This document shows positions 4,195 to 27,662 of a DNA stretch of 64,000 bases, one piece after another. The notes beneath the pieces were generated by a model, which was not told where the DNA came from, ran no database searches, and saw only the letters and a list, made by a program, of their open reading frames with translations. The DNA is from Acidobacteriaceae bacterium (lineage in GTDB: Bacteria > Acidobacteriota > Terriglobia > Terriglobales > Acidobacteriaceae), in NCBI GenBank assembly GCA_030041435.1, contig JASHNW010000127.1:1-64000 (forward strand). The letters run 5' to 3'. Each line of letters starts with the position of its first letter. The first letter of the stretch is position 1. The position numbers and the translations under genes were made by a program.

Positions 4195-7100
4195 CTATTG
4201 GCCGGCAGCAATCTTTTCCGTGCGCGGCGACATGCGCGCAGTGCGCTCGATTTTCTCCCAGTTGAACGGCCGTCCCTCGATGGCCCGCTTTACGGTACGG
4301 AAGAGCACAATCGAGAAGAGCTGGCGATAGCAGAAGCGCTGCAGCCAGACGTGAGGCAGCAGCCAGATATCGCCCTTGTTGGCGGGGTGGCGCGGCTCCA
4401 GGCTGAAGGCCAGCACCGAGGTGACAAAGTCGATGATCAGGAATACGAGGAAATAGATGAGCAGCTTGTCGAAGCTGGCGGAGCTCGCGGCTTCGGGATG
4501 GAAATGCAGGTCGATCAGGTAATGGATCACACCGGCGGCGAACATGATGTCGATGAAGGGCGACACCAGCGGCAGCAGAATCTGGAAGATGAGAATGTTG
4601 GGCAGGGCAAAGAATCCCATCGCGGGATTCGTTCTGGCTCCGGCACGGTGCTTGAAGACGGCCTGCAGGATGCCAAAGGACCAGCGAAAGCGCTGGCGCA
4701 TCAGGCTGCGCGCGGTCGCCGGAGCCTCGGTGAAGGCCAGGGCGCGGTCTTCGTAGATGACCTTGAACCGCTGCTCCAGCAGATTCATGGTCAGGTCGGC
4801 ATCTTCAGCTACGGTATTGACGGGATAAGAACCGCTGCGTTTCACGGCGCTGGTCCGCCACGCACCGATAGCGCCGGGAACCACGGTTACAACATCGAAC
4901 AAATCCATCGCGCGGCGCTCGAAGTTCTGGCTGGTGATGTATTCGAGGGCCTGCCACTGGGTCCAAAGATTGACGCGATTGCCGACCTTGGCGTTGCCGG
5001 CCACAGCGCCCACGCGCGGGTCGGCAAAGTGACAGACCAGCTTCGAAATGGCGTCCGGGGCAATCACAGTGTCGGCATCGATGCCGACGTAGATTTCCTC
5101 GTCGACGTGATTCAGCCCCGCATTGAGGGCTTCGGCTTTGCCGGCATTCGGTTTGGTCAGCACCATCAGCCGTCCCTGCGCGATTCCCTCCGGCCAGGCT
5201 TCGCGGGCCACATCGAATGTATGGTCGCGCGAGCCGTCGTCGATCACGATGACGCGGATGTTGCTGTAATCCGACTGCAGGACCGATTTGATGGTGCGGG
5301 CGATGACCAGCTCCTCGTTGTAGGCGGGAATCAGCACGGCCACGCGCGGCTGGAAAGCACCTGGGGGAACCGTTCGCCTGCGGATGCGATCGATCAGGGC
5401 AAAGATTCCGATCAGGATCAGGCGTGCGCTCATCAGCACGTCGCCGATAAAGAAGATGTCCACCACAAAGTGGGCGAAGAATCCGAAGAAAAAGAACGCG
5501 ACCCAGTCGACGCGGGCCTGCCAGCGCATCTTCGGCGAGATGGGGGGCATGACTTCGGCCGTTGTTTTTCCCATCAGCTCGCTGACCGGGACAAGCTTGT
5601 AACCTTTCGCACGCAGCGTGGTAATCAGCAGGGGCAGCGCGGCCACGGTGGCGGAGCGGTCGCCGCCGCCGTCGTGCATGAGGATGATGCTGCCGCGCAT
5701 CCACGGCAGTGTTTTCATCTCCTGGATCTGCTGCAGAACGCTGTCGGTAATCTCCTGGGGCGACTTGCGGGGGTGCTCGTTCCAGTCGTCGGTATCGATC
5801 TTGTCGCCGATGATGGTATAGCCCATCTGCTGGATGCGATAGGCGGGGGCGGCTTCGTCGTTGGTGTCCGGCTCCTGGTCGATGGAGTAAGGAGGACGGA
5901 AATACAGCGGCTGAATTCCCAGCTCGGCGGCAAAGAGCCGCTCCGTCCAGTTCAGTTCCTCCTGCAGCTGGAAGGGAGAAATTTCGCTGATGTCAGGATG
6001 GGTGAAAGTGTGGTTGGCGATCTCGTGCCCTTCGCGGATGTAGCGCTTGAGCAGCCCGACATTCTCCTGGGCCTCCTCGCCGATGACCATGAAGGTCGCG
6101 TGCACGTGATACTTCTTCAGGATGTCGAGGATCTTTGGGGTCCACACCGGGTCGGGACCGTCGTCGAAGGTTAGCGCCAGCTCGTCGGGCTTGTAGCCGT
6201 ACTGCTCGATAGTGTAGGAGCGCGGCAGCTGGGTCATCTCCTCGTCGATGACGGTGAAGTTGTCAGCGTCCATCTGGATGGTGCGTTCGCCCATCTGCGG
6301 CGGGGCCACGATGTGCAGGACGTCGCCCTCGCCTTCCGTATCCACGTCCTCGCCCGGCTGCACGGTGCGCAGCAGCTGGGGCGCGTCCGGGGCGCTGGGG
6401 CGGTCCCAGACCTTCCACAGCGAGGGATCCTCCTCACCCAGCCGCCAGAGCGCGAAGGTGCGCAGCCCCATCTGGCGGCCCGCGCGCATCTCGTTGAGGG
6501 CGGTCACACCGTCCAGGAACCACACCTGGTGGCGCAGGTGCTGGTCCTCATCGTCGTACGCGAAGTGCGGGTTCAGCTCGTCGCCTTCCAGATGCACGTC
6601 CGCATCGGCATCGGCGGCCCGCTGCCACGCGTCCTGCACCGAGAGATCGGTGACGTCCACCACCTGGCTGGAAGCCTTTTTACCCTTTTCCGGGAGTGGC
6701 ACCGCCCAGTCGAACCCATAATTCCCGATTCCGCAAATGATCTTCTCTTTGGGAACAATCTTCATCAGGTGGGTCAGATTGGCCTCAAACCACGGCTCGC
6801 CGGCCACGGGACCGGGATCGCTGGTTTCCTCGTGCTGGTCGTAATTCATCAGGATGATGCCGTCGCTGTTGCGCGCCACCTGCCTCACGAATGCGTCGTC
6901 CGCGCTCACCTGCACGTTCACGTAGATGCGCAGGTTTTTCGCGCGAAAATCGTTGTGCAGCTCTCCGATCCATTGTGCGTACAGCGCTGTGTCATCGTCA
7001 GGCACCTGCTCGAAGTCCAGGCAAATCCCGTGATACAGCGGGTTCGCATACAGGAATTTGTCCAGCTGGAGATGCAGACGCTCCCTGGCGGCGGGACTGC

Positions 7101-7695
7101 GCAGCATCTGCCCGATGACATCGCCGTTCCATGAATTGGTCAGCGTGTCGTAGTCGTTGAGCATGGGGAAGACGTCGGTGTCCTCCTTTGCGGCTTCGAT
7201 CGTTGTTCGGACCTTGTTTTGCGGATCGACATCATGCACGCCGGCCGCGTCCACGACCCTGTAAAAATGCACCGGGAACTGGGGTGTCGCGCCCATCAGA
7301 TTTCCGTCGGCGGAAATGACGTGGAGCCAGTCGGGAAACAGCATGTCGAGCTGGTGGATGTGCAGCTTGAGAGCGGAATAGCTGGCCTCGTCGTTCTCGT
7401 AGAAAGCGGCTCTCAGTTGCTCATCCGAGTTCATCTCGATCTCCGACGAGCGGAGATGCGAGTTTCTGCGCGCAGGCCGGGCAGCGGCGCGCCGCATCAA
7501 TTCCGGCTGGCGCTCCCGGAGCGCCTTCAGGTTCGGTTTTTGCGCAGGAAGCAGAAGTTCGGGCAGTGTTTGGCGGGAGAACACGCTGAAAATGAACCCA
7601 GCCAGCACTAAGGTGAGAGCGACAAGAGACACATCCGTCACCCGCCGAATGACCTTTCGGCGCCGCTGTTTGGGATCGTAGAAGACTTGCTTCAT
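4195..7695 (-). CDS. Trifunctional membrane protein: GH18-like domain, NodB deacetylase and GT2 processive synthase
   Basis: This single chain of 1166 residues appears to combine three exopolysaccharide activities. After a basic N-terminus and one membrane span (about 20-40) comes a GH18/YaaH-like barrel (about 115-435) with GICLDFEQ (Asp227, Glu229). The first Asp of the usual DG-x-x-x-D-x-E signature is His222. A NodB polysaccharide deacetylase follows (about 505-705) with TFDDGP (509-514), HTFTH (562-566), RPPY (600-603) and LMHD (672-675). After two spans (about 730-768) there is a GT2 domain with PAYNEE, VIDDGS, DAD (873-875), AEDAD and QRFRW (1001-1005), then C-terminal spans. Together these resemble a fused PgaB+PgaC type machine for an N-acetylhexosamine polymer: cytoplasmic synthesis, external deacetylation and hydrolysis. 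The polymer is inferred. It is divergent from the 7917 glycosyltransferase, with paired dyads upstream. Confidence 0.88.
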   Translation of the reverse strand: MKQVFYDPKQRRRKVIRRVTDVSLVALTLVLAGFIFSVFSRQTLPELLLPAQKPNLKALRERQPELMRRAAARPARRNSHLRSSEIEMNSDEQLRAAFYENDEASYSALKLHIHQLDMLFPDWLHVISADGNLMGATPQFPVHFYRVVDAAGVHDVDPQNKVRTTIEAAKEDTDVFPMLNDYDTLTNSWNGDVIGQMLRSPAARERLHLQLDKFLYANPLYHGICLDFEQVPDDDTALYAQWIGELHNDFRAKNLRIYVNVQVSADDAFVRQVARNSDGIILMNYDQHEETSDPGPVAGEPWFEANLTHLMKIVPKEKIICGIGNYGFDWAVPLPEKGKKASSQVVDVTDLSVQDAWQRAADADADVHLEGDELNPHFAYDDEDQHLRHQVWFLDGVTALNEMRAGRQMGLRTFALWRLGEEDPSLWKVWDRPSAPDAPQLLRTVQPGEDVDTEGEGDVLHIVAPPQMGERTIQMDADNFTVIDEEMTQLPRSYTIEQYGYKPDELALTFDDGPDPVWTPKILDILKKYHVHATFMVIGEEAQENVGLLKRYIREGHEIANHTFTHPDISEISPFQLQEELNWTERLFAAELGIQPLYFRPPYSIDQEPDTNDEAAPAYRIQQMGYTIIGDKIDTDDWNEHPRKSPQEITDSVLQQIQEMKTLPWMRGSIILMHDGGGDRSATVAALPLLITTLRAKGYKLVPVSELMGKTTAEVMPPISPKMRWQARVDWVAFFFFGFFAHFVVDIFFIGDVLMSARLILIGIFALIDRIRRRTVPPGAFQPRVAVLIPAYNEELVIARTIKSVLQSDYSNIRVIVIDDGSRDHTFDVAREAWPEGIAQGRLMVLTKPNAGKAEALNAGLNHVDEEIYVGIDADTVIAPDAISKLVCHFADPRVGAVAGNAKVGNRVNLWTQWQALEYITSQNFERRAMDLFDVVTVVPGAIGAWRTSAVKRSGSYPVNTVAEDADLTMNLLEQRFKVIYEDRALAFTEAPATARSLMRQRFRWSFGILQAVFKHRAGARTNPAMGFFALPNILIFQILLPLVSPFIDIMFAAGVIHYLIDLHFHPEAASSASFDKLLIYFLVFLIIDFVTSVLAFSLEPRHPANKGDIWLLPHVWLQRFCYRQLFSIVLFRTVKRAIEGRPFNWEKIERTARMSPRTEKIAAGQ

Positions 7696-7706
7696 TCTGT
7701 TTGGAG

Positions 7707-7749
7707 CGTACGAAATCCATCGTACGATATTGTGCGGACCGCATATCGT
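7707..7749. promoter_or_regulatory. Two nested dyads in the divergent intergenic region (putative operator)
   Basis: CGTACGA (7707-7713) and TCGTACG (7720-7726) form a perfect 7-base inverted repeat around a 6-base spacer, ending 12 bases from the ATG of the trifunctional gene. Overlapping it, ACGATA (7724-7729) and TATCGT (7744-7749) flank TGCGG (7733-7737) and CCGCA (7739-7743). The sites share the ACGATA/TCGTACG core. This looks like a repressor or activator target between two divergent cell-surface genes. The regulator is unknown. Confidence 0.45.
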
Positions 7750-7789
7750 CCCAGGACTGTCTTTTAGCGGAGCGGCTGTTTGCTGCGCT

Positions 7790-7912
7790 TACGGCAATTC
7801 CTGCGTTGCTGTGGTTTTTCGGATTCAGTGCAGGGCCGCCGCTTCCTGCGGGTCGCGGCAACCTGACTGCAGCGGCTTCGGGATACACCGACTCGGGAAT
7901 TGCGATAGCTGT
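7790..7912. repeat. Dispersed ~120-bp repeat with inverted ends, copy 1
   Basis: This is a 123-base element whose sequence recurs at 24143-24261. The left end carries gcaattcctgcgt and the right end actcgggaattgc, an inverted pair with two mismatches in this copy. The two copies share a 27-base identical block near the right end and an 18-base identical right terminus. The element ends four bases before the ATG at 7917, so it supplies the immediate 5' leader of the glycosyltransferase gene. It has no coding capacity of its own. It could be a MITE or REP/BIME-like element. Confidence 0.75.
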
Positions 7913-7916
7913 TCTA

Positions 7917-9302
7917 ATGTTTCCAGTGCCTTGTCCATGGTCCAGAAAGTGGTGGTTGGTCCTGCTCGCGCTCACCGCCGGCGCTGCTCTCCGTATCTGG
8001 TTTATTTACGCGTATCCAGAGGTGAACGGCGACACGCTGATGTACGGGGACATCGCGAAGAACTGGATGCTTCACGGTGTCTACGGCTTGTCCTCGCCAG
8101 GCGGCATCCATCCCACGCTCATCCGGCTGCCCGGCTACCCTCTCTTTCTGATCCTGTGCTTCCGGTTCTTCGGCATGGAGCACTACAACGCGGTGATGTT
8201 CGCGCAAACCGGCCTGGACCTTGCTTCGTGCCTGCTGATTGCCGGTTTCGCGCGCCGCGTGTGGAGCGATCGCGCGGGCTGGTGGGCGTTGTGGCTTTCT
8301 GTGCTGTGCCCCTTTACCGCGAACTATGCCGCGGCTCCGCTTACGGAAACGCCTGAAATTTTCTGCACAGCGCTCGCTTTCTACGCGATCGTGCGTTTTC
8401 TCGAGACTCCGAAGTGGACCTGGGCTTGCGCCCTCGCCATTGCGTGGAGCTACGCCGCGCTTCTGCGGCCCGACGGTGCGCTGGTCGCGGTCGCGCTGTG
8501 TCCCGCCATCGTTTTCTGCGGCTGGAGGCGCTGGGGCAGGGCGCGCATGACGCGCTGGGCGGCGATTTGCGGAATATTCTCGCTCGCGCCGTTCGTCCTG
8601 TGGGCCGCACGCAACGAGCGCACTTTCCACATCTTCGAACCGCTTGCGCCCCGCTATGCCGTCGACCCGGGAGAGAGCTCCGATCCGGGATTCAATCGCT
8701 GGACGAAGACAATCTGCGCCGATCTCACCTGCACTGCCGACGTCTACTGGAATGCCAATACAGACGTCATTGATTTCAGCAATCTGCCCGCGCGCGCCTT
8801 CGACTCGCCGGCGGAGTATGAGCAGACGAAGCAACTGATCGCAGCCTATAACCGCGGGACTACGCTCACGCCGCCGATTGATGCAGCCTTCGGTGCGCTT
8901 GCGGATCAAGGCATCCGCGCCCATCCCTTCCGATACTACGTGGCGTTGCCGCTGATGCGTCTCGCCGATATGTGGCTGCGCCCGCGCACCGAAATGCTGT
9001 GGATTGAAATGCGCTGGTGGCAGTTTGAGCATCACGAATCCGAAACGGAGTTCGCCGTCGCCTACGCGGCGCTGAACCTGGCGTATCTGGTCGCGGCCCT
9101 GGTTGGATTCCTGAAGCGTCCGCGCTTTGCCGGGGCCATTCTGGCATTCATCCTGCTGCGCTGCGCTCTGCTGCTGACGCTGGAGGCGCCGGAGCCGCGT
9201 TACACGCTGGAGTGTTTTCCCCCTCTGCTGGCGCTCGCCGGCATCGCCCTGAGCGGCCACCGCGCCGGATCGGCCGAGTCGCGATTTAGAATCGAGCCAT
9301 GA
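7917..9302 (+). CDS. Membrane glycosyltransferase, GT39/ArnT-PMT-like
   Basis: This integral membrane protein of 461 residues, with about ten hydrophobic segments, probably moves a sugar from a lipid-phosphate carrier on the outer face of the inner membrane. After a first span (WWLVLLALTAG) comes the acidic loop EVNGDTLMYGDIAKNW and RLPGYPLFL. Both features recur in PMT_2/GT39-type enzymes, where the loop acid is catalytic. The frame is open back to 7701, but that region includes the repeat 7790-7912, so ATG at 7917 is the likely start. It has no clear ribosome-binding site. The stop overlaps the next gene's start (ATGA at 9299-9302). Acceptor and donor are unknown. Confidence 0.75.
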   Translation: MFPVPCPWSRKWWLVLLALTAGAALRIWFIYAYPEVNGDTLMYGDIAKNWMLHGVYGLSSPGGIHPTLIRLPGYPLFLILCFRFFGMEHYNAVMFAQTGLDLASCLLIAGFARRVWSDRAGWWALWLSVLCPFTANYAAAPLTETPEIFCTALAFYAIVRFLETPKWTWACALAIAWSYAALLRPDGALVAVALCPAIVFCGWRRWGRARMTRWAAICGIFSLAPFVLWAARNERTFHIFEPLAPRYAVDPGESSDPGFNRWTKTICADLTCTADVYWNANTDVIDFSNLPARAFDSPAEYEQTKQLIAAYNRGTTLTPPIDAAFGALADQGIRAHPFRYYVALPLMRLADMWLRPRTEMLWIEMRWWQFEHHESETEFAVAYAALNLAYLVAALVGFLKRPRFAGAILAFILLRCALLLTLEAPEPRYTLECFPPLLALAGIALSGHRAGSAESRFRIEP

Positions 9303-10284: not shown

Positions 10285-11070
10285 TTATCTTGCAAAGAGG
10301 CGCGACAGGAATCCGCGCTTCACCGAAGCGTCCTCGCCGATCCCTTCCGGCTCCGGCTGTGGGAGCAACTCGCGATTCTCGAAGACCGCGCGCGGATTGT
10401 CCACGCACAGCCGCTCCGCCGTCTGCCGGCCGAGGCGCTTCTCGATGGCTTCATAGGCCTCGCTCAGGCAGGGACGCCGCGCATTCAAATTGTGAGCGTC
10501 AGTCGCGACAAAGTGAACCCAATTTCGCTCGAGCAACTCCCACGCCACTTTGTGTGCGCGTTTTCCGAACCCCTTGCCCAGGGAGGCTGCAGTTACCTGG
10601 ACCAGGCAGCCGGTTCGCAGCCACACGGCCATGCGCTCGAAATCCCGCTGCAGGAGCATATTCCGTTCCGGATGGGTGATGATCGGCTGCATTCCTTTGA
10701 CCATCAGCTCGTGAAAAGCGATTCCGATGTTGGTGGGGATTACATAATCGGCGAATTCGACCAGCAAATATCGCCCTTGATTGATCGTGTACTTCGTGGG
10801 ATAGTGCAGTGCGTCTTCGATATTCTCGTAGGAAAGATGAAAGTCGCAGCCCAGGCCCAGAGTGAGCTTGTCACCTATCCGCTCGCGGATCGCCGCCAGC
10901 CGCTCCCGATTGATCTCCGGCCTGAAGGCGAACACATGATTCGCATGTGGGGTACAGGCAATGTGGGTGATGCCGTCGGCCGCGGCGGCCCTGGCCTGCT
11001 CGATTGAGGCTTCAATGTTTTTCGGGCCGTCGTCGATCGCGAAGAGCAGATGATGATGAATGTCGATCAT
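10285..11070 (-). CDS. CpsB/YwqE-type PHP-fold tyrosine phosphatase
   Basis: This Mn2+-dependent phosphatase of 261 residues belongs to the PHP family that controls capsule/exopolysaccharide export kinases in other bacteria. It starts [16 protein letters not shown], giving the H-x-H metal motif at once. Further family landmarks are [39 protein letters not shown] and [13 protein letters not shown]. Its ATG overlaps the purQ stop by four bases (ATGA at 11067-11070), so it is coupled to purQ. No capsule kinase is present nearby, so the link to polysaccharide control is only by family. Confidence 0.85.
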
Positions 11071-11765
11071 GGCTTCCGGGCCAGAGCTCCGACCAGAGAC
11101 TCGAAGATTCGAAATCCGTCCGCCGAGCCCAGCAACGCTTCGCTCGACCGGTCTGGATGGGGCATCATCCCCAGTACGTTCCTTCCCTCGTTCAGAATGC
11201 CCGCAATGTTGTCCAGCGACCCGTTGGGATTAGCCTCCGGAGTCACCTCGCCGTCCGATGTCGCATAGCGGAAGGCAACGCGATGCTGTCGACGAAGCTC
11301 GGCCAGGGTGACGTCATCGCAGAAATAATTCCCTTCCATGTGGCCGATGGGGATCTTCAGCACCTGCCCCGGGCGGACGGTCTGCGTGAAGGGCGAATCG
11401 GCTGTCTCAGTTCTGAGACAGACCTGCTTACAGATATACTGCAAACCCGCGTTGCGCATCAGTGCGCCCGGGAGCAGGCCGGCTTCGCACAGGATCTGGA
11501 AACCATTGCAAATCCCGAGCACCAGGCCGCCCTGTGCGGCGAACTTTTTCACCGACTGCATGACGGGGGAAAACCGCGCAATCGCCCCGGTTCTCAGATA
11601 ATCTCCATACGCAAATCCGCCGGGAACCAGGATTGCGTCGCAGCTCTGCAGGTCGGCCGAGTCGTGCCAAAGGAAGACCACCGGCTGGCGCGCCAGTTCT
11701 GCCACCACATGCCAGGTGTCGTGGTCGCAGTTCGATCCGGGGAAAACAAGAACTCCAAATCTCAT
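11067..11765 (-). CDS. purQ: Phosphoribosylformylglycinamidine synthase, glutaminase subunit
   Basis: PurQ hydrolyses glutamine to supply ammonia to PurL in the fourth step of purine synthesis. The protein (232 residues) begins [17 protein letters not shown] and has the class I amidotransferase nucleophile in [10 protein letters not shown] and the C-terminal His/Glu pair in [26 protein letters not shown] is a further PurQ hallmark. ATG at 11765 is preceded by ggggaa; the open frame above it is antisense-like low-value sequence. It lies 16 bases after trmFO and overlaps the next gene. purS and purL are not in this window. Confidence 0.95.
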
Positions 11766-11781
11766 GATGTTCCCCTTCAGG

Positions 11782-13161
11782 TTAGCAGGTAGGTCGCTCC
11801 GCGCATGCGATGGCGTGGTCGCCGTCTGCCTCTTTTCGGTACACACCCGTCGCGGCCAGCCATGCGTCCATCGACGCCAGCGCCCGCTCGCACTGCATGC
11901 GGTGCCGCTCGCGCTTGTCGCGCACGCGCCGTCGCGTCGCCTCATCGAGAGGCTCCAGCAGGTCGAAGGTAATGTTCGCCGGCTGAAAGCGTTTCGCGTC
12001 CGCCTGGGTGATGTAGTTCACCAGCGAGCCGAGCGCCGTCCCCCGCGGAATCGGGTGCGGCGGCCGGGACTGCGCCGCCATTGCCGCGTGCATGCCCGCC
12101 AGCATTCCCGTGGCGATCGATTCGGTATACCCCTCCACACCCGAAATCTGCCCGGCAAAGTAAATTTCAGGATGCCCGCGCAGATTGAGGGTGCGCGAGA
12201 GCACGCGTGGCGCGTCGATATAGGTGTTGCGATGAATCTGGCCGTAACGCAGGAATTTTGCGTTTTCGAGGCCCGGGATCATGCGGAAAATGCGCGCCTG
12301 CTCACCGAACTTCATATGGTTCTGAAAACCGACCAGGTTATAGGAGTCAGCCCGCAGATTCTCCACTCGCAGCTGCACTACCGCCCACGGCATTTTCCCC
12401 GTCCGCGGATCGCGCAACCCCACCGGTTTCATGGGCCCGAAGCGCAGCGTGTCGCGACCGCGACGGGCCAGCTCTTCGATCGGCAGGCAGCCCTCAAAAT
12501 ACTCGAGTTTCTCCCATTCCTTCGCCTCCACGCTCTCCGCGGTGAGCAGCGCATCGTGGAAGGCCTCGTAGTCTGCCTGGGTCATGGGGCAGTTGATGTA
12601 ATCCGCGGTGCCCCGATCGTAGCGAGCGGCCAGGTAGACTTTCTCGCGGTCGATAGAGTCGGCCTCCACAATCGGGCTGATCGAGTCGTAGAACGCCAGA
12701 TGGTCGCTGCCGGTGAGCCTTGCAATCTCCTGGGAGAGGGACGGTGAGGTCAGCGGCCCGGAGGCCACGATGGCGATCTGACCGGCAGCATCGAGCCGCG
12801 TTACTTCCTCACGATGCACCGTGATGCGAGGCTGGGCGGCAATCATCTCGCCGATGAGGCGGGAAAACACCGCCCGATCGACGGCCAGCGCATGACCGGC
12901 TGGGACGGCGCTGGCGTCAGCACACTCCAGCAGTGGCGACCCAGCCCGCCGCATCTCGGCTTTCAGCAGCCAGGGCGCGGTGTTTTCGCTCTCCGATTTG
13001 AGCGAGTTGGAGCAGACCAGCTCCCCGAAATCCGGCGTCCGATGGGCGGGCGTGCTCTGTAGCGGGCGCATTTCGTACAGATCGACCTCGGCACCCATCC
13101 TGGCCGCAACCAGCGCTGCCTCGGGGCCGGCCAGCCCACCGCCAATGACGCGAATTCTCAT
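11782..13161 (-). CDS. trmFO: Methylenetetrahydrofolate--tRNA-(uracil-54-C5)-methyltransferase
   Basis: This FAD- and folate-dependent enzyme makes m5U54 in the T-loop of tRNAs. The protein (459 residues) starts with the FAD-binding motif [12 protein letters not shown], then YEMRP, the diagnostic [11 protein letters not shown] and [12 protein letters not shown], and later YVNCPM-like [25 protein letters not shown] and [12 protein letters not shown]. All are TrmFO (Gid) signatures. It overlaps the preceding acetyltransferase stop by four bases (13158-13161) and lies 16 bases ahead of purQ, so the four leftward genes probably form one operon. Confidence 0.96.
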
Positions 13162-14737: not shown

Positions 14738-16123
14738 GTGTTTTCGCGACTCTCCATTTGGGCGGCCCTGGGTGCACTGTTTCTGGCTGCAACCGCCGCT
14801 CCTCTGTGCGCCTCGGCGGACGGCCCGTGGCCCCAGGCACCGCAGCCGGAGGTGCAAGGCGGCGCCGCTCCCGACAGCGGAATTACCCTGCGTCACGCCA
14901 TCGCCGCGGCGCTGGCCAACGACCCCGCCTTTGCTTCAGCTTCTGCCGCCAGTGGTTCGGCGCGCCTCGATGCCGCAATGAGCCGCGGCGAGCTGCTGCC
15001 CAACGCCACCGCGAACGGGGTGTATACCTATACGACGCCGAGCCGTTTTCTGAATAAGGATGCACCGCCGGGTCTGGAGGAATTGCCCGCCTTTGTCGCC
15101 AACGATTCCATCCATGAGTACTGGGCGCAGATTCTGGTGAACCAGACGATCAGCGTCACGAACCTCGAGAACTATCGCCGCTCGCGCGCGCTGGCGACGC
15201 AGGCCGGAGCTGACCTCGAAAGCGCCCGCCGTGATCTGGTGGCCCGCGTCGTCACGGCTTACTTCAGCGTTGTTTCCACTGCCAAGAAAGCAGACGTGGC
15301 AAAGCAGGCTCTCGATGAGTCAAAAAGCTTCGTCGACCTGACGCAGAAGCTCGAAACCGGGCGCGAGGTTGCGCACGCCGACTTCGTAAAAGCCGAACTC
15401 GCCTTCCAGCAGCGCCAGCGGGACTTTGCCGATGCCACTCTGGCGGCTGAGAAAGCCCGCCTCGAACTGGGTGTCCTGCTCTTTGCCGACCCGCGGACGC
15501 CCTATACCCTCGCGGATGAGAAGCAACCCCAGGCCCCATTGCCGGACGAGTCCACCGTCCAGGCTGCGGCTTCCCATAACAACCCCGACCTGCGCAGCGC
15601 GCTGGCCGCATTGCACGCCGGGCACGACGCAGTGGAAGCCGCGCGGGCCGGTTATATTCCCACCATCGGCTTGAACTACACCTGGGGCATCAACGCGCCT
15701 GAGATTGCCGTCAACGGTCGCGACGAGGTTCGCAACCTCGGGTATTCGGCTTCCGTCTCCATCGATTTTCCGGTGTGGGACTGGTTCGCCACCCACGACC
15801 GCGTGCGCCAGTCGGAACTGCGGGAGAAGGCCGCCCAGGCCGCTCTCACCACGACCCAGCGCCGCCTTGTCGCTCAGCTTGATGAGTACTATGCGGAGGC
15901 GCGCGTGGCTGGCGATCAGGTGACGTCACTGCGCGCCAGTGCAGAGACGGCCCGCGAAAGCCTGCGCCTTACCCGGCTGCGTTACTCCGCGGGCGAAGCC
16001 CTCGCACTGGAGGTCGTCGACGCCGAAACCTCTCTGGCGCAGGCCGAGGCCGCGCTCGCGGACGGCATCCTGCGCAGCCGGGTGGCCCGCGCCAACCTGC
16101 AGACCCTCACCGGAGTCCTCTGA
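14738..16123 (+). CDS. TolC-family outer-membrane efflux protein
   Basis: This is the outer-membrane channel of a tripartite pump (461 residues). A signal peptide (about 1-26, ending ASA) is followed by the two repeated coiled-coil/OEP domains. The first begins ITLRHAIAAALANDP and holds YFSVVSTAKKADVAKQAL. The second holds FPVWDWFATHDRVRQSE and RLRYSAGEALALEVVDAETSLAQAEAAL, the usual closing block. The start is GTG at 14738. It ends immediately before the adaptor gene (stop 16121-16123, next ATG 16124), so TolC, adaptor and permease are one operon. Confidence 0.92.
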   Translation: MFSRLSIWAALGALFLAATAAPLCASADGPWPQAPQPEVQGGAAPDSGITLRHAIAAALANDPAFASASAASGSARLDAAMSRGELLPNATANGVYTYTTPSRFLNKDAPPGLEELPAFVANDSIHEYWAQILVNQTISVTNLENYRRSRALATQAGADLESARRDLVARVVTAYFSVVSTAKKADVAKQALDESKSFVDLTQKLETGREVAHADFVKAELAFQQRQRDFADATLAAEKARLELGVLLFADPRTPYTLADEKQPQAPLPDESTVQAAASHNNPDLRSALAALHAGHDAVEAARAGYIPTIGLNYTWGINAPEIAVNGRDEVRNLGYSASVSIDFPVWDWFATHDRVRQSELREKAAQAALTTTQRRLVAQLDEYYAEARVAGDQVTSLRASAETARESLRLTRLRYSAGEALALEVVDAETSLAQAEAALADGILRSRVARANLQTLTGVL

Positions 16124-26939: not shown

Positions 26940-27662
26940 ATGCTTGCCATCATTGCAACGTGTGCAACGGCCGCAGGGCTCGCTGCCGGAGGCTGCGTGT
27001 ATGCTGCTCTCTGGCCCGAATCTCAGTTCTTCGGGCGCACTCTCATCGCCGGCACCGACCCGGCCGAGTTCGCGCTCACCTTCGACGACGGCCCCAACGA
27101 CCCGTACACTCCGAAGCTTCTCGATCTGCTCGGGCAGCATAACGTCCGCGCCACCTTTTTCCTCATCGGCAACTTCGTTCACCAGCGCCCTGACCTGGTG
27201 CGCCAAATTCACGCAGCCGGGCACCTCATCGGCAATCACACCACTAGTCATCCCTGGCTGCCGTTGCTCAGCGCACGGCGCGTCCGCAACGAGCTTGCCT
27301 TCTGCAATGCCACCATCGAGGACGCTATCGGCCAGCCTGTCCGCTTCTTTCGCCCACCCCACGGCGCGCGCCGGCCGGACGTCCTCCGCGCCGCTCGCTC
27401 GCTGGGTCTCACGCCGGTCCTGTGGAACGCGATGGGCTTCGATTGGCAGCCTGGCAGAGCCGCCGGGCAAATCGCCGCGCATCTCACGCGCGGTATTCTC
27501 CGCAACCAGCAGCGGGGCCGCGGCTCCAATCTCCTTCTCCACGATGGCAGCCACACGCGCATCGGCGTCGACCGTTCCCGCTCCATTGAAGCCACCCGCC
27601 TCATCCTGGCGCGCTACCCTCCCGGCGCTGCCCGCTACGTCACGATCGACGCCTGGGCCTGA
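26940..27662 (+). CDS. Membrane-anchored NodB-type polysaccharide deacetylase
   Basis: This 240-residue protein has an N-terminal signal/anchor segment (about 1-25) and a NodB homology domain. It keeps the metal and catalytic motifs TFDDGP (47-52), the HxxxH pair as HTTSH (100-104), RPPHGAR and LLLHDGS. It should remove acetyl groups from N-acetylglucosamine polymers, for example peptidoglycan or chitin-like oligosaccharides, outside the cytoplasm. It differs from the NodB domain within the large fusion at 4195-7695 and carries no synthase. It stands 64 bases ahead of the ADOP permease gene. Confidence 0.88.
   Translation: MLAIIATCATAAGLAAGGCVYAALWPESQFFGRTLIAGTDPAEFALTFDDGPNDPYTPKLLDLLGQHNVRATFFLIGNFVHQRPDLVRQIHAAGHLIGNHTTSHPWLPLLSARRVRNELAFCNATIEDAIGQPVRFFRPPHGARRPDVLRAARSLGLTPVLWNAMGFDWQPGRAAGQIAAHLTRGILRNQQRGRGSNLLLHDGSHTRIGVDRSRSIEATRLILARYPPGAARYVTIDAWA

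Follow-up and report, generated by a model that had tools for sequence, protein, structure and literature searches.

A 64,000-nucleotide stretch of genome from an Acidobacteriaceae bacterium (GenBank assembly GCA_030041435.1, contig JASHNW010000127.1, positions 1 to 64,000; hereafter the window) encodes a 1166-residue membrane protein that joins a GH18-fold barrel, a NodB/CE4 deacetylase and a processive GT2 synthase. We consider it probable that this fusion belongs to a known class of glycan synthases with three domains, in which the GT2 domain would make a polymer, the NodB domain would deacetylate it, the barrel would handle it, and a GT-C membrane glycosyltransferase encoded next to the fusion would add sugar to it. 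The three-domain architecture is widespread and already known, and is not new; the evidence presented here concerns its conservation, its linked GT-C gene and the decay of its barrel in two lineages.

Domain organisation of the fusion protein

The fusion gene is one ATG-started open reading frame (ORF) with zero internal stops, and its features, together with the evidence for each, are as follows.

4195-7695, minus strand: GH18-fold, NodB/CE4 and GT2 membrane protein; a single ORF
7564-7653, minus strand: N-terminal hydrophobic helix, a predicted signal anchor, residues 15-44, with 6 Lys/Arg ahead; hydropathy, and a model helix at 11-41 of low confidence
6388-7422, minus strand: predicted GH18-fold barrel of the YdhD/SleL/class-V-chitinase type, residues 92-436; sequence matches in the Protein Data Bank (PDB) and predicted fold
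7009-7032, minus strand: GH18 signature HGICLDFE, residues 222-229; substitutions at the first two Asp, with Asp227 and Glu229 retained
5560-6189, minus strand: NodB/CE4 deacetylase domain, residues 503-712; Pfam, PDB match and conserved residues
5383-5529, minus strand: membrane helix region between NodB and GT2, residues 723-771; model and hydropathy
4672-5349, minus strand: GT2 synthase domain, residues 783-1008, with DDG at 819-821, DAD at 873-875 and ED at 964-965; Pfam, conservation and hyaluronan synthase fold
4681-4695, minus strand: QRFRW processivity motif, residues 1001-1005
4393-4629, minus strand: C-terminal membrane helices, residues 1023-1101; model and hydropathy

All the domains of the GH18-NodB-GT2 class are present in this one collinear chain. 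The same three domains in one protein are, we take it, those of the CDD entries cd06549 (GH18_trifunctional) and cd10962 (CE4_GT2-like), whose function is listed as unknown, and to our knowledge no partner gene, activity or GH18 decay has been described for either. Among the titles listed by searches of the open-access literature, not one dealt with the three-domain protein, which is uncharacterised in that sense, and the term cd06549 is absent from the main text of PMC6902481.

A scan of genome contigs with a GH18-domain alignment gave at least 594 stretches, 576 of which were confirmed, and the best 80 loci were used for comparison; some of these are the same genome present in two collections. 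The whole fusion lies in one collinear ORF at 73 of the 80 loci, while in six it is truncated where the contig ends and in one (L047) it is broken internally. The possibility that the single chain is an artefact of assembly or frameshift draws on this broken copy, which comes from a metagenome-assembled genome (MAG), on some genomes with one stop within the match, and on one Sulfitobacter record that has the parts as two genes. However, the recurrence of one unbroken ORF at 73 loci and in four plasmid records renders such an artefact extremely improbable, and the single chain proposed in the initial annotation was thus borne out.

The structure of the fusion was predicted as an AlphaFold2 model from 48 sequences (mean predicted local distance difference test score (pLDDT) 81.5; predicted template modelling score 0.62). 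As six Lys/Arg precede the N-terminal helix, the barrel and the NodB domain should face the outside, and since the GT2 domain needs the cytosol, residues 723-771 must make an odd number of membrane crossings. A single long helix is modelled here, with hydropathy ambiguous over about 729-771, and MatB, a Streptomyces NodB-GT2 fusion, has one predicted helix between its CE4 and GT2 domains in the part of PMC5972031 available to us. The order first proposed (membrane helix, GH18, NodB, membrane helices, GT2 with QRFRW, C-terminal helices) therefore stands in all but the count of two helices between NodB and GT2, as two crossings would leave the GT2 domain outside.

Distribution of the three-domain architecture

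Within the phylum the fusion was common. When the genome of the window and 60 relatives were searched (n=61), 37 matched at E<=1e-30, and in 27 of these a single match spanned from residue 5 or before to residue 1151 or beyond, among them G016 with one internal TGA; the remaining matches were mostly pieces, that in G059 being the GT2 part only. In a draw of 297 genomes from the phylum, 52 matched at E<=1e-100 and 50 of the matches spanned from residue 67 or before to residue 1109 or beyond. Of the 80 retained loci, 79 bear acidobacterial labels, and breadth beyond the phylum rests on a plasmid collection, in which 43 records matched and 17 of them covered at least 80% of the query. Full or near-full plasmid matches came from Deinococcus, Sphingobium, Novosphingobium, Sphingomonas, Prevotella and Roseobacteraceae, and the fusion was a single ORF in four records (Deinococcus, Sphingobium, Prevotella and Sulfitobacter). 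The initial annotation had supposed that similar fusions may exist elsewhere, which was true but understated, the architecture being common. No relative was found in viral contigs with a single-protein query, which reaches close relatives only.

Split and partial forms were also seen. In Sulfitobacter sp. OXR-159 (L159, 4575-7988) the barrel-NodB part and the GT2 part are two consecutive separate genes. Plasmid relatives in Kocuria and Streptomyces have the NodB-GT2 part only, the match running from residue 502 or 425 onward. On a Kocuria rosea plasmid (L158, 3899-7204) the NodB-GT2 fusion stands alongside a convergent, separate, chitinase-annotated gene, whose product matches GH18 weakly (22.9 bits, cut-off 29.6); this locus is a split form of the GH18/NodB/GT2 trio.

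The NodB and GT2 active sites are conserved

Conservation was assessed in 97 distinct full-length rows (73 loci, the window, 19 further acidobacterial genomes and 4 plasmid records), incomplete or broken copies having been excluded before counting. The domain search placed both the deacetylase and the synthase above their cut-offs. Polysacc_deac_1 (PF01522) matched residues 503-605 (E 9e-31, 106.8 bits, cut-off 23.1), and the NodB residues Asp511/Asp512, His562/His566 (His-x3-His), Arg600, Asp637-Trp638 and His674 are conserved. The checked deacetylase residues were found in 96 or 97 of the 97 rows, the exception being Pro601, which follows Arg600 (93/97). The NodB part of the model also resembles Bacillus cereus Bc1960 (4l1g; Foldseek TM-score on target 0.84). 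By sequence the domain is thus a NodB/CE4 polysaccharide deacetylase, with predicted activity.

Glyco_tranf_2_3 (PF13641) matched residues 783-1008 (E 2e-34, 120.2 bits, cut-off 27). Three GT2 Pfam models within 783-1053 scored well above their cut-offs, PF10111 fell below its own, and Chitin_synth_2 matched the fusion at 48.4 bits (cut-off 27). The GT2 active site is intact: DDG, DAD, ED and QRFRW are all present, the motif residues occur in 96 or 97 of the 97 rows, and Q, R, R and W of QRFRW each occur in all 97. The model of residues 743-1166 superposes on hyaluronan synthase (8snc) with Z 31.1 and a root-mean-square deviation (rmsd) of 3.4 over 385 aligned residues. These data place the domain among the processive GT2 synthases of the PgaC/NodC/hyaluronan synthase/CesA kind, again with predicted activity. 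Against NCBIfam models the GT2 part scored 173.5 bits for PgaC_IcaA, 93.6 for NodC (cut-off 550) and 61.5 for CelA, each under its own cut-off, and the NodB part scored 118.5 bits for NodB (cut-off 240).

The GH18-fold barrel and loss of its catalytic acid in two lineages

In contrast to the other two domains, the barrel was not listed by Pfam as GH18 (PF00704) at E<=1. Its residues 175-419 matched YdhD (3cz8) in a phmmer search of the PDB (E 2.7e-20), with weaker matches to 5jh8, 4wiw and SleL/YaaH. The predicted barrel at residues 92-436, which covers the 115-435 first suggested, superposes on two solved structures: 307 residues align with chitinase 5jh8 (Z 33.0, rmsd 2.4) and 308 with SleL 4s3j (Z 32.0, rmsd 2.9). 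Both the homology to solved GH18 proteins and the predicted TIM-barrel fold identify it as a GH18 domain.

The catalytic signature of GH18 enzymes is DGxDxDxE. In the window protein His222 and Cys225 replace the first two Asp, while Asp227 and Glu229 are retained. The initial annotation had noted His222 correctly but took the missing first Asp as a possible sign of an unusual or deacetylated substrate, and this did not hold: residue 222 is Arg in 54 of the 97 rows, His in 23, Lys in 12, another residue in 8 and never Asp, and YdhD also lacks this Asp. His222 is therefore family background and was dismissed as a sign of unusual specificity. At residue 225, Asp occurs in 2 of the 97 rows.

Conservation in the barrel was lower than in the other domains, Asp227 being present in 94, Glu229 in 88, Asp286 in 90 and Trp417 in 93 of the 97 rows. 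Eight of the nine rows lacking Glu229 have Gln in its place and form one clade (support 1.0) of Granulicella, Bryocella and MAGs labelled only Acidobacteria (L065, L074, L075, L076, L078, L083, L085 and L087). Further losses within it affect Asp286 in five members, Asp227 in two and Trp417 in three, while the GT2 residues are intact, as are the NodB aspartates and histidines except for one Asp in L075; mean barrel identity to the query is 0.499, against 0.511 in the whole set. In three Sulfitobacter sequences position 229 is Thr or Ser, and the MxYD and Trp residues are missing. Judged from these alignments, the GH18 catalytic acid has been lost in two separate lineages with the domain itself retained, which renders cutting doubtful as a family-wide role, and the acid-less barrels may hold or bind the chain rather than cut it. 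In the window protein, where Asp227 and Glu229 are present, cutting is possible.

A divergent GT-C gene is linked to the fusion

A second gene is transcribed divergently just upstream of the fusion.

7917-9302, plus strand: predicted GT-C membrane glycosyltransferase (PMT_2; ArnT/PMT/OST fold)
7696-7916, no strand: intergenic region between the fusion and GT-C genes

The ORF as listed runs from a TTG at 7701 to 9302, with homology beginning near the ATG at 7917, and no sigma-70-type site was found in 7600-8000. Its product scored 37.8 bits for PMT_2 (cut-off 26.1), and its model (pLDDT 92.7) superposes on ArnT (5f15) with Z 24.0 and rmsd 3.8 over 312 aligned residues; the sole NCBIfam match gave 21.1 bits (cut-off 200). 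It thus shares the GT-C fold of ArnT and PMT enzymes but differs in having only 13% identity to ArnT. PMT_2 and the modelled fold together identify the partner as a GT-C, ArnT-like protein.

A relative of this gene adjoins the fusion in 68 of the 73 loci; a clustering method gave 64 of 77 loci, four plasmid loci included. The five loci without a match were L096, L098, L106, L112 and L115, of which L096 and L098 have less than 400 bases upstream. In the 297-genome draw the GT-C protein was found in 38 genomes at E<=1e-20 and all 38 carried the fusion, the two genes being divergent and adjacent in 31, on the same strand nearby in 2 and on another contig in 5 (Fisher P 1e-36, uncorrected for shared ancestry). 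Within Acidobacteriota the GT-C gene is tightly linked to the fusion. Cultivated bacteria with both the one-ORF fusion and the GT-C gene include Acidipila rosea and Terracidiphilus gabretensis. Among five more distant relatives three have the GT-C gene, L123 has a different PMT_2 gene and in L120 neither was seen; the L123 protein (11483-13120, minus strand) adjoins a fusion without the usual GT-C relative. One contig with an acidobacterial-type fusion and GT-C gene (L095) is labelled Rhodanobacteraceae and is perhaps mis-binned or mislabelled.

Proposed mode of action and nature of the product

Located on the cytosolic side of the inner membrane, the GT2 domain would processively polymerise UDP-N-acetylglucosamine (most likely) or a similar amino sugar, and the chain would be threaded outward through the membrane helices of the fusion itself. 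Outside, the NodB domain would strip some N-acetyl groups in vivo and the barrel would hold the emerging chain, which the window protein may also cut. Because ArnT/PMT-type GT-C enzymes draw on lipid-linked sugars on the outer side of the membrane, the partner may most naturally be supposed to decorate the polymer, and in Acidobacteriota it would probably add a lipid-carrier sugar to the product as acceptor.

Several observations weigh against this proposal. The PgaC_IcaA score is far below the curated cut-off of 422.3 bits (TIGR03937), so that poly-N-acetylglucosamine (PNAG) is not established as the product. The co-occurrence P value overstates independence because the genomes share ancestry. 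Of the 52 fusion-bearing genomes in the draw, 14 had no GT-C match, and none was recognised in the stretches around those fusions with a narrow profile, which also missed the PMT_2 gene of L123. The four tested plasmid loci (Deinococcus, Prevotella, Sphingobium and Sulfitobacter) lack a GT-C partner. Finally, no exporter was found next to the fusion; a TolC-type OEP gene is located about 7 kb away (14738-16123, plus strand).

The product could alternatively be ordinary, partly deacetylated PNAG made in the style of PgaB plus PgaC, the barrel being an active endo-hydrolase that sets chain length and the GT-C gene a mere neighbour. The best GT2 score is for PgaC_IcaA, MatB provides a precedent, and Asp227 and Glu229 are retained in the window protein. 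Yet the PgaC cut-off was missed, the GH18 acid is gone in the eight-row clade and separately in three Sulfitobacter sequences, the genome has no PgaB hydrolase and nothing over the PgaA cut-off, and the GT-C gene accompanies the fusion too consistently to be there by chance; we thus regard this alternative as unlikely. As a further alternative, the product could be a beta-1,4 polymer or oligomer resembling chitin or chitosan, made as by NodC and handled by the barrel as a beta-1,4 chain. The barrel does match chitinases, and the NodB, NodC and Chitin_synth_2 matches given above point the same way, but PgaC_IcaA outscores NodC, and SleL-type GH18 proteins are annotated as spore-cortex enzymes, hence the branch is not restricted to chitin. 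A chitin-like product therefore seems rather unlikely, if a little less so than ordinary PNAG.

Relation to known polysaccharide systems

By analogy, the fusion is likely to work like PgaB plus PgaC or like MatB. MatB, which is needed for PNAG in the available part of PMC5972031 and is of a NodB-GT2 type also described in that of PMC4391728, likewise has an extracellular CE4 domain, a predicted membrane helix and an intracellular GT2 domain, and its authors liken it to a fused IcaA-IcaB. In contrast to the fusion, MatB is described there without a GH18 barrel and as working with MatA. PgaB and PgaC likewise bring a deacetylase, a hydrolase-fold domain and a GT2 synthase to one polymer, but in the portions of the sources at hand they are separate proteins, with GH153 rather than GH18, with deacetylase and barrel in the reverse order, and with PgaA as a partner. 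Gram-negative glycosyltransferase-deacetylase fusions in operons without detectable pgaA or pgaD are described in the accessible part of PMC7112194. YdhD and SleL (YaaH) are the closest solved barrels by sequence, but the solved chains have no synthase or deacetylase domain.

GH153 (the PgaB hydrolase, PF14883) was rejected for the barrel, as it was not listed for the fusion at E<=1 and the barrel is of the GH18 YaaH/SleL/class-V type. In a survey of the genome of the window for separate pga and bcs genes, neither PF14883 (for which an Escherichia coli control was found) nor BcsB matched at E<=0.001, and nothing exceeded the PgaA or PgaC cut-offs, PgaD not having been searched; PgaA gave 47 weak matches, the best with 39.9 of 366.65 bits. 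By sequence, then, the fusion is not itself a Pga protein. Of the earlier proposal that PgaB-like and PgaC-like functions are united here, the joining of deacetylase, GH18 fold and synthase in one chain stands, while GH153 membership, the meaning given to His222 and the two helices do not.

Other genes near the fusion

Partner genes vary by lineage while the enzyme is constant. Four sphingomonad loci (Sphingobium, Sphingomonas and two Novosphingobium) have genes for VirJ/AcvB, MprF and a two-component pair in the vicinity of the fusion, in shuffled orders (L038, 11351-16790; L154; L155; L156). Accordingly, the product could be a cell-bound cationic glycan under stress control that alters envelope charge, rather than a biofilm matrix, and in the literature, as far as its available parts go, envelope stress is linked with AcvB/VirJ and lysyl-lipid synthesis. 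However, no match to the sphingomonad VirJ or MprF proteins was found in the window or in the 80 acidobacterial-type loci, although an LPG_synthase_TM protein is encoded about 3.5 kb from the fusion of L123, and the diguanylate cyclase adjoining the Deinococcus fusion fits a biofilm role; we hold such an envelope function to be improbable, to about the same degree as a chitin-like product. A DUF3131 gene is next to the fusion in two of three inspected Sulfitobacter loci (L039 and L157, not L159). None of these neighbours was seen at the Prevotella locus.

In the window itself a CpsB/CapC-type capsule phosphatase gene lies about 3 kb from the fusion (10285-11070, minus strand), and a second, separate NodB-like match (27051-27608, plus strand) has 35% identity to the NodB domain of the fusion. 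A general link to glyQ/glyS was rejected, as it was seen in only 1 of 73 loci (L043), some loci ending early. Rfam gave no match at gathering score in the window.

Biological meaning

Synthase-dependent exopolysaccharides normally need several separate proteins. We tentatively suggest that in Acidobacteriota the fusion and the GT-C protein might form a compact two-gene machine, without Pga or Bcs partners, for a new side-chain-decorated, partly deacetylated amino-sugar polymer, the barrel having turned chain-holder, fully so in the Granulicella/Bryocella clade and, beyond this phylum, in Sulfitobacter; we consider this possible rather than probable. Why synthase-dependent exopolysaccharide machines hold a hydrolase is unsettled in the part of PMC5933820 available to us, and a natural single-chain system with acid-less barrel lineages separates binding from cutting. 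What lifts these findings above the routine for a known architecture is the GT-C linkage together with the barrel decay, and the GT-C gene offers an initial, testable clue to the surface polymer of a soil phylum that is abundant yet little known.

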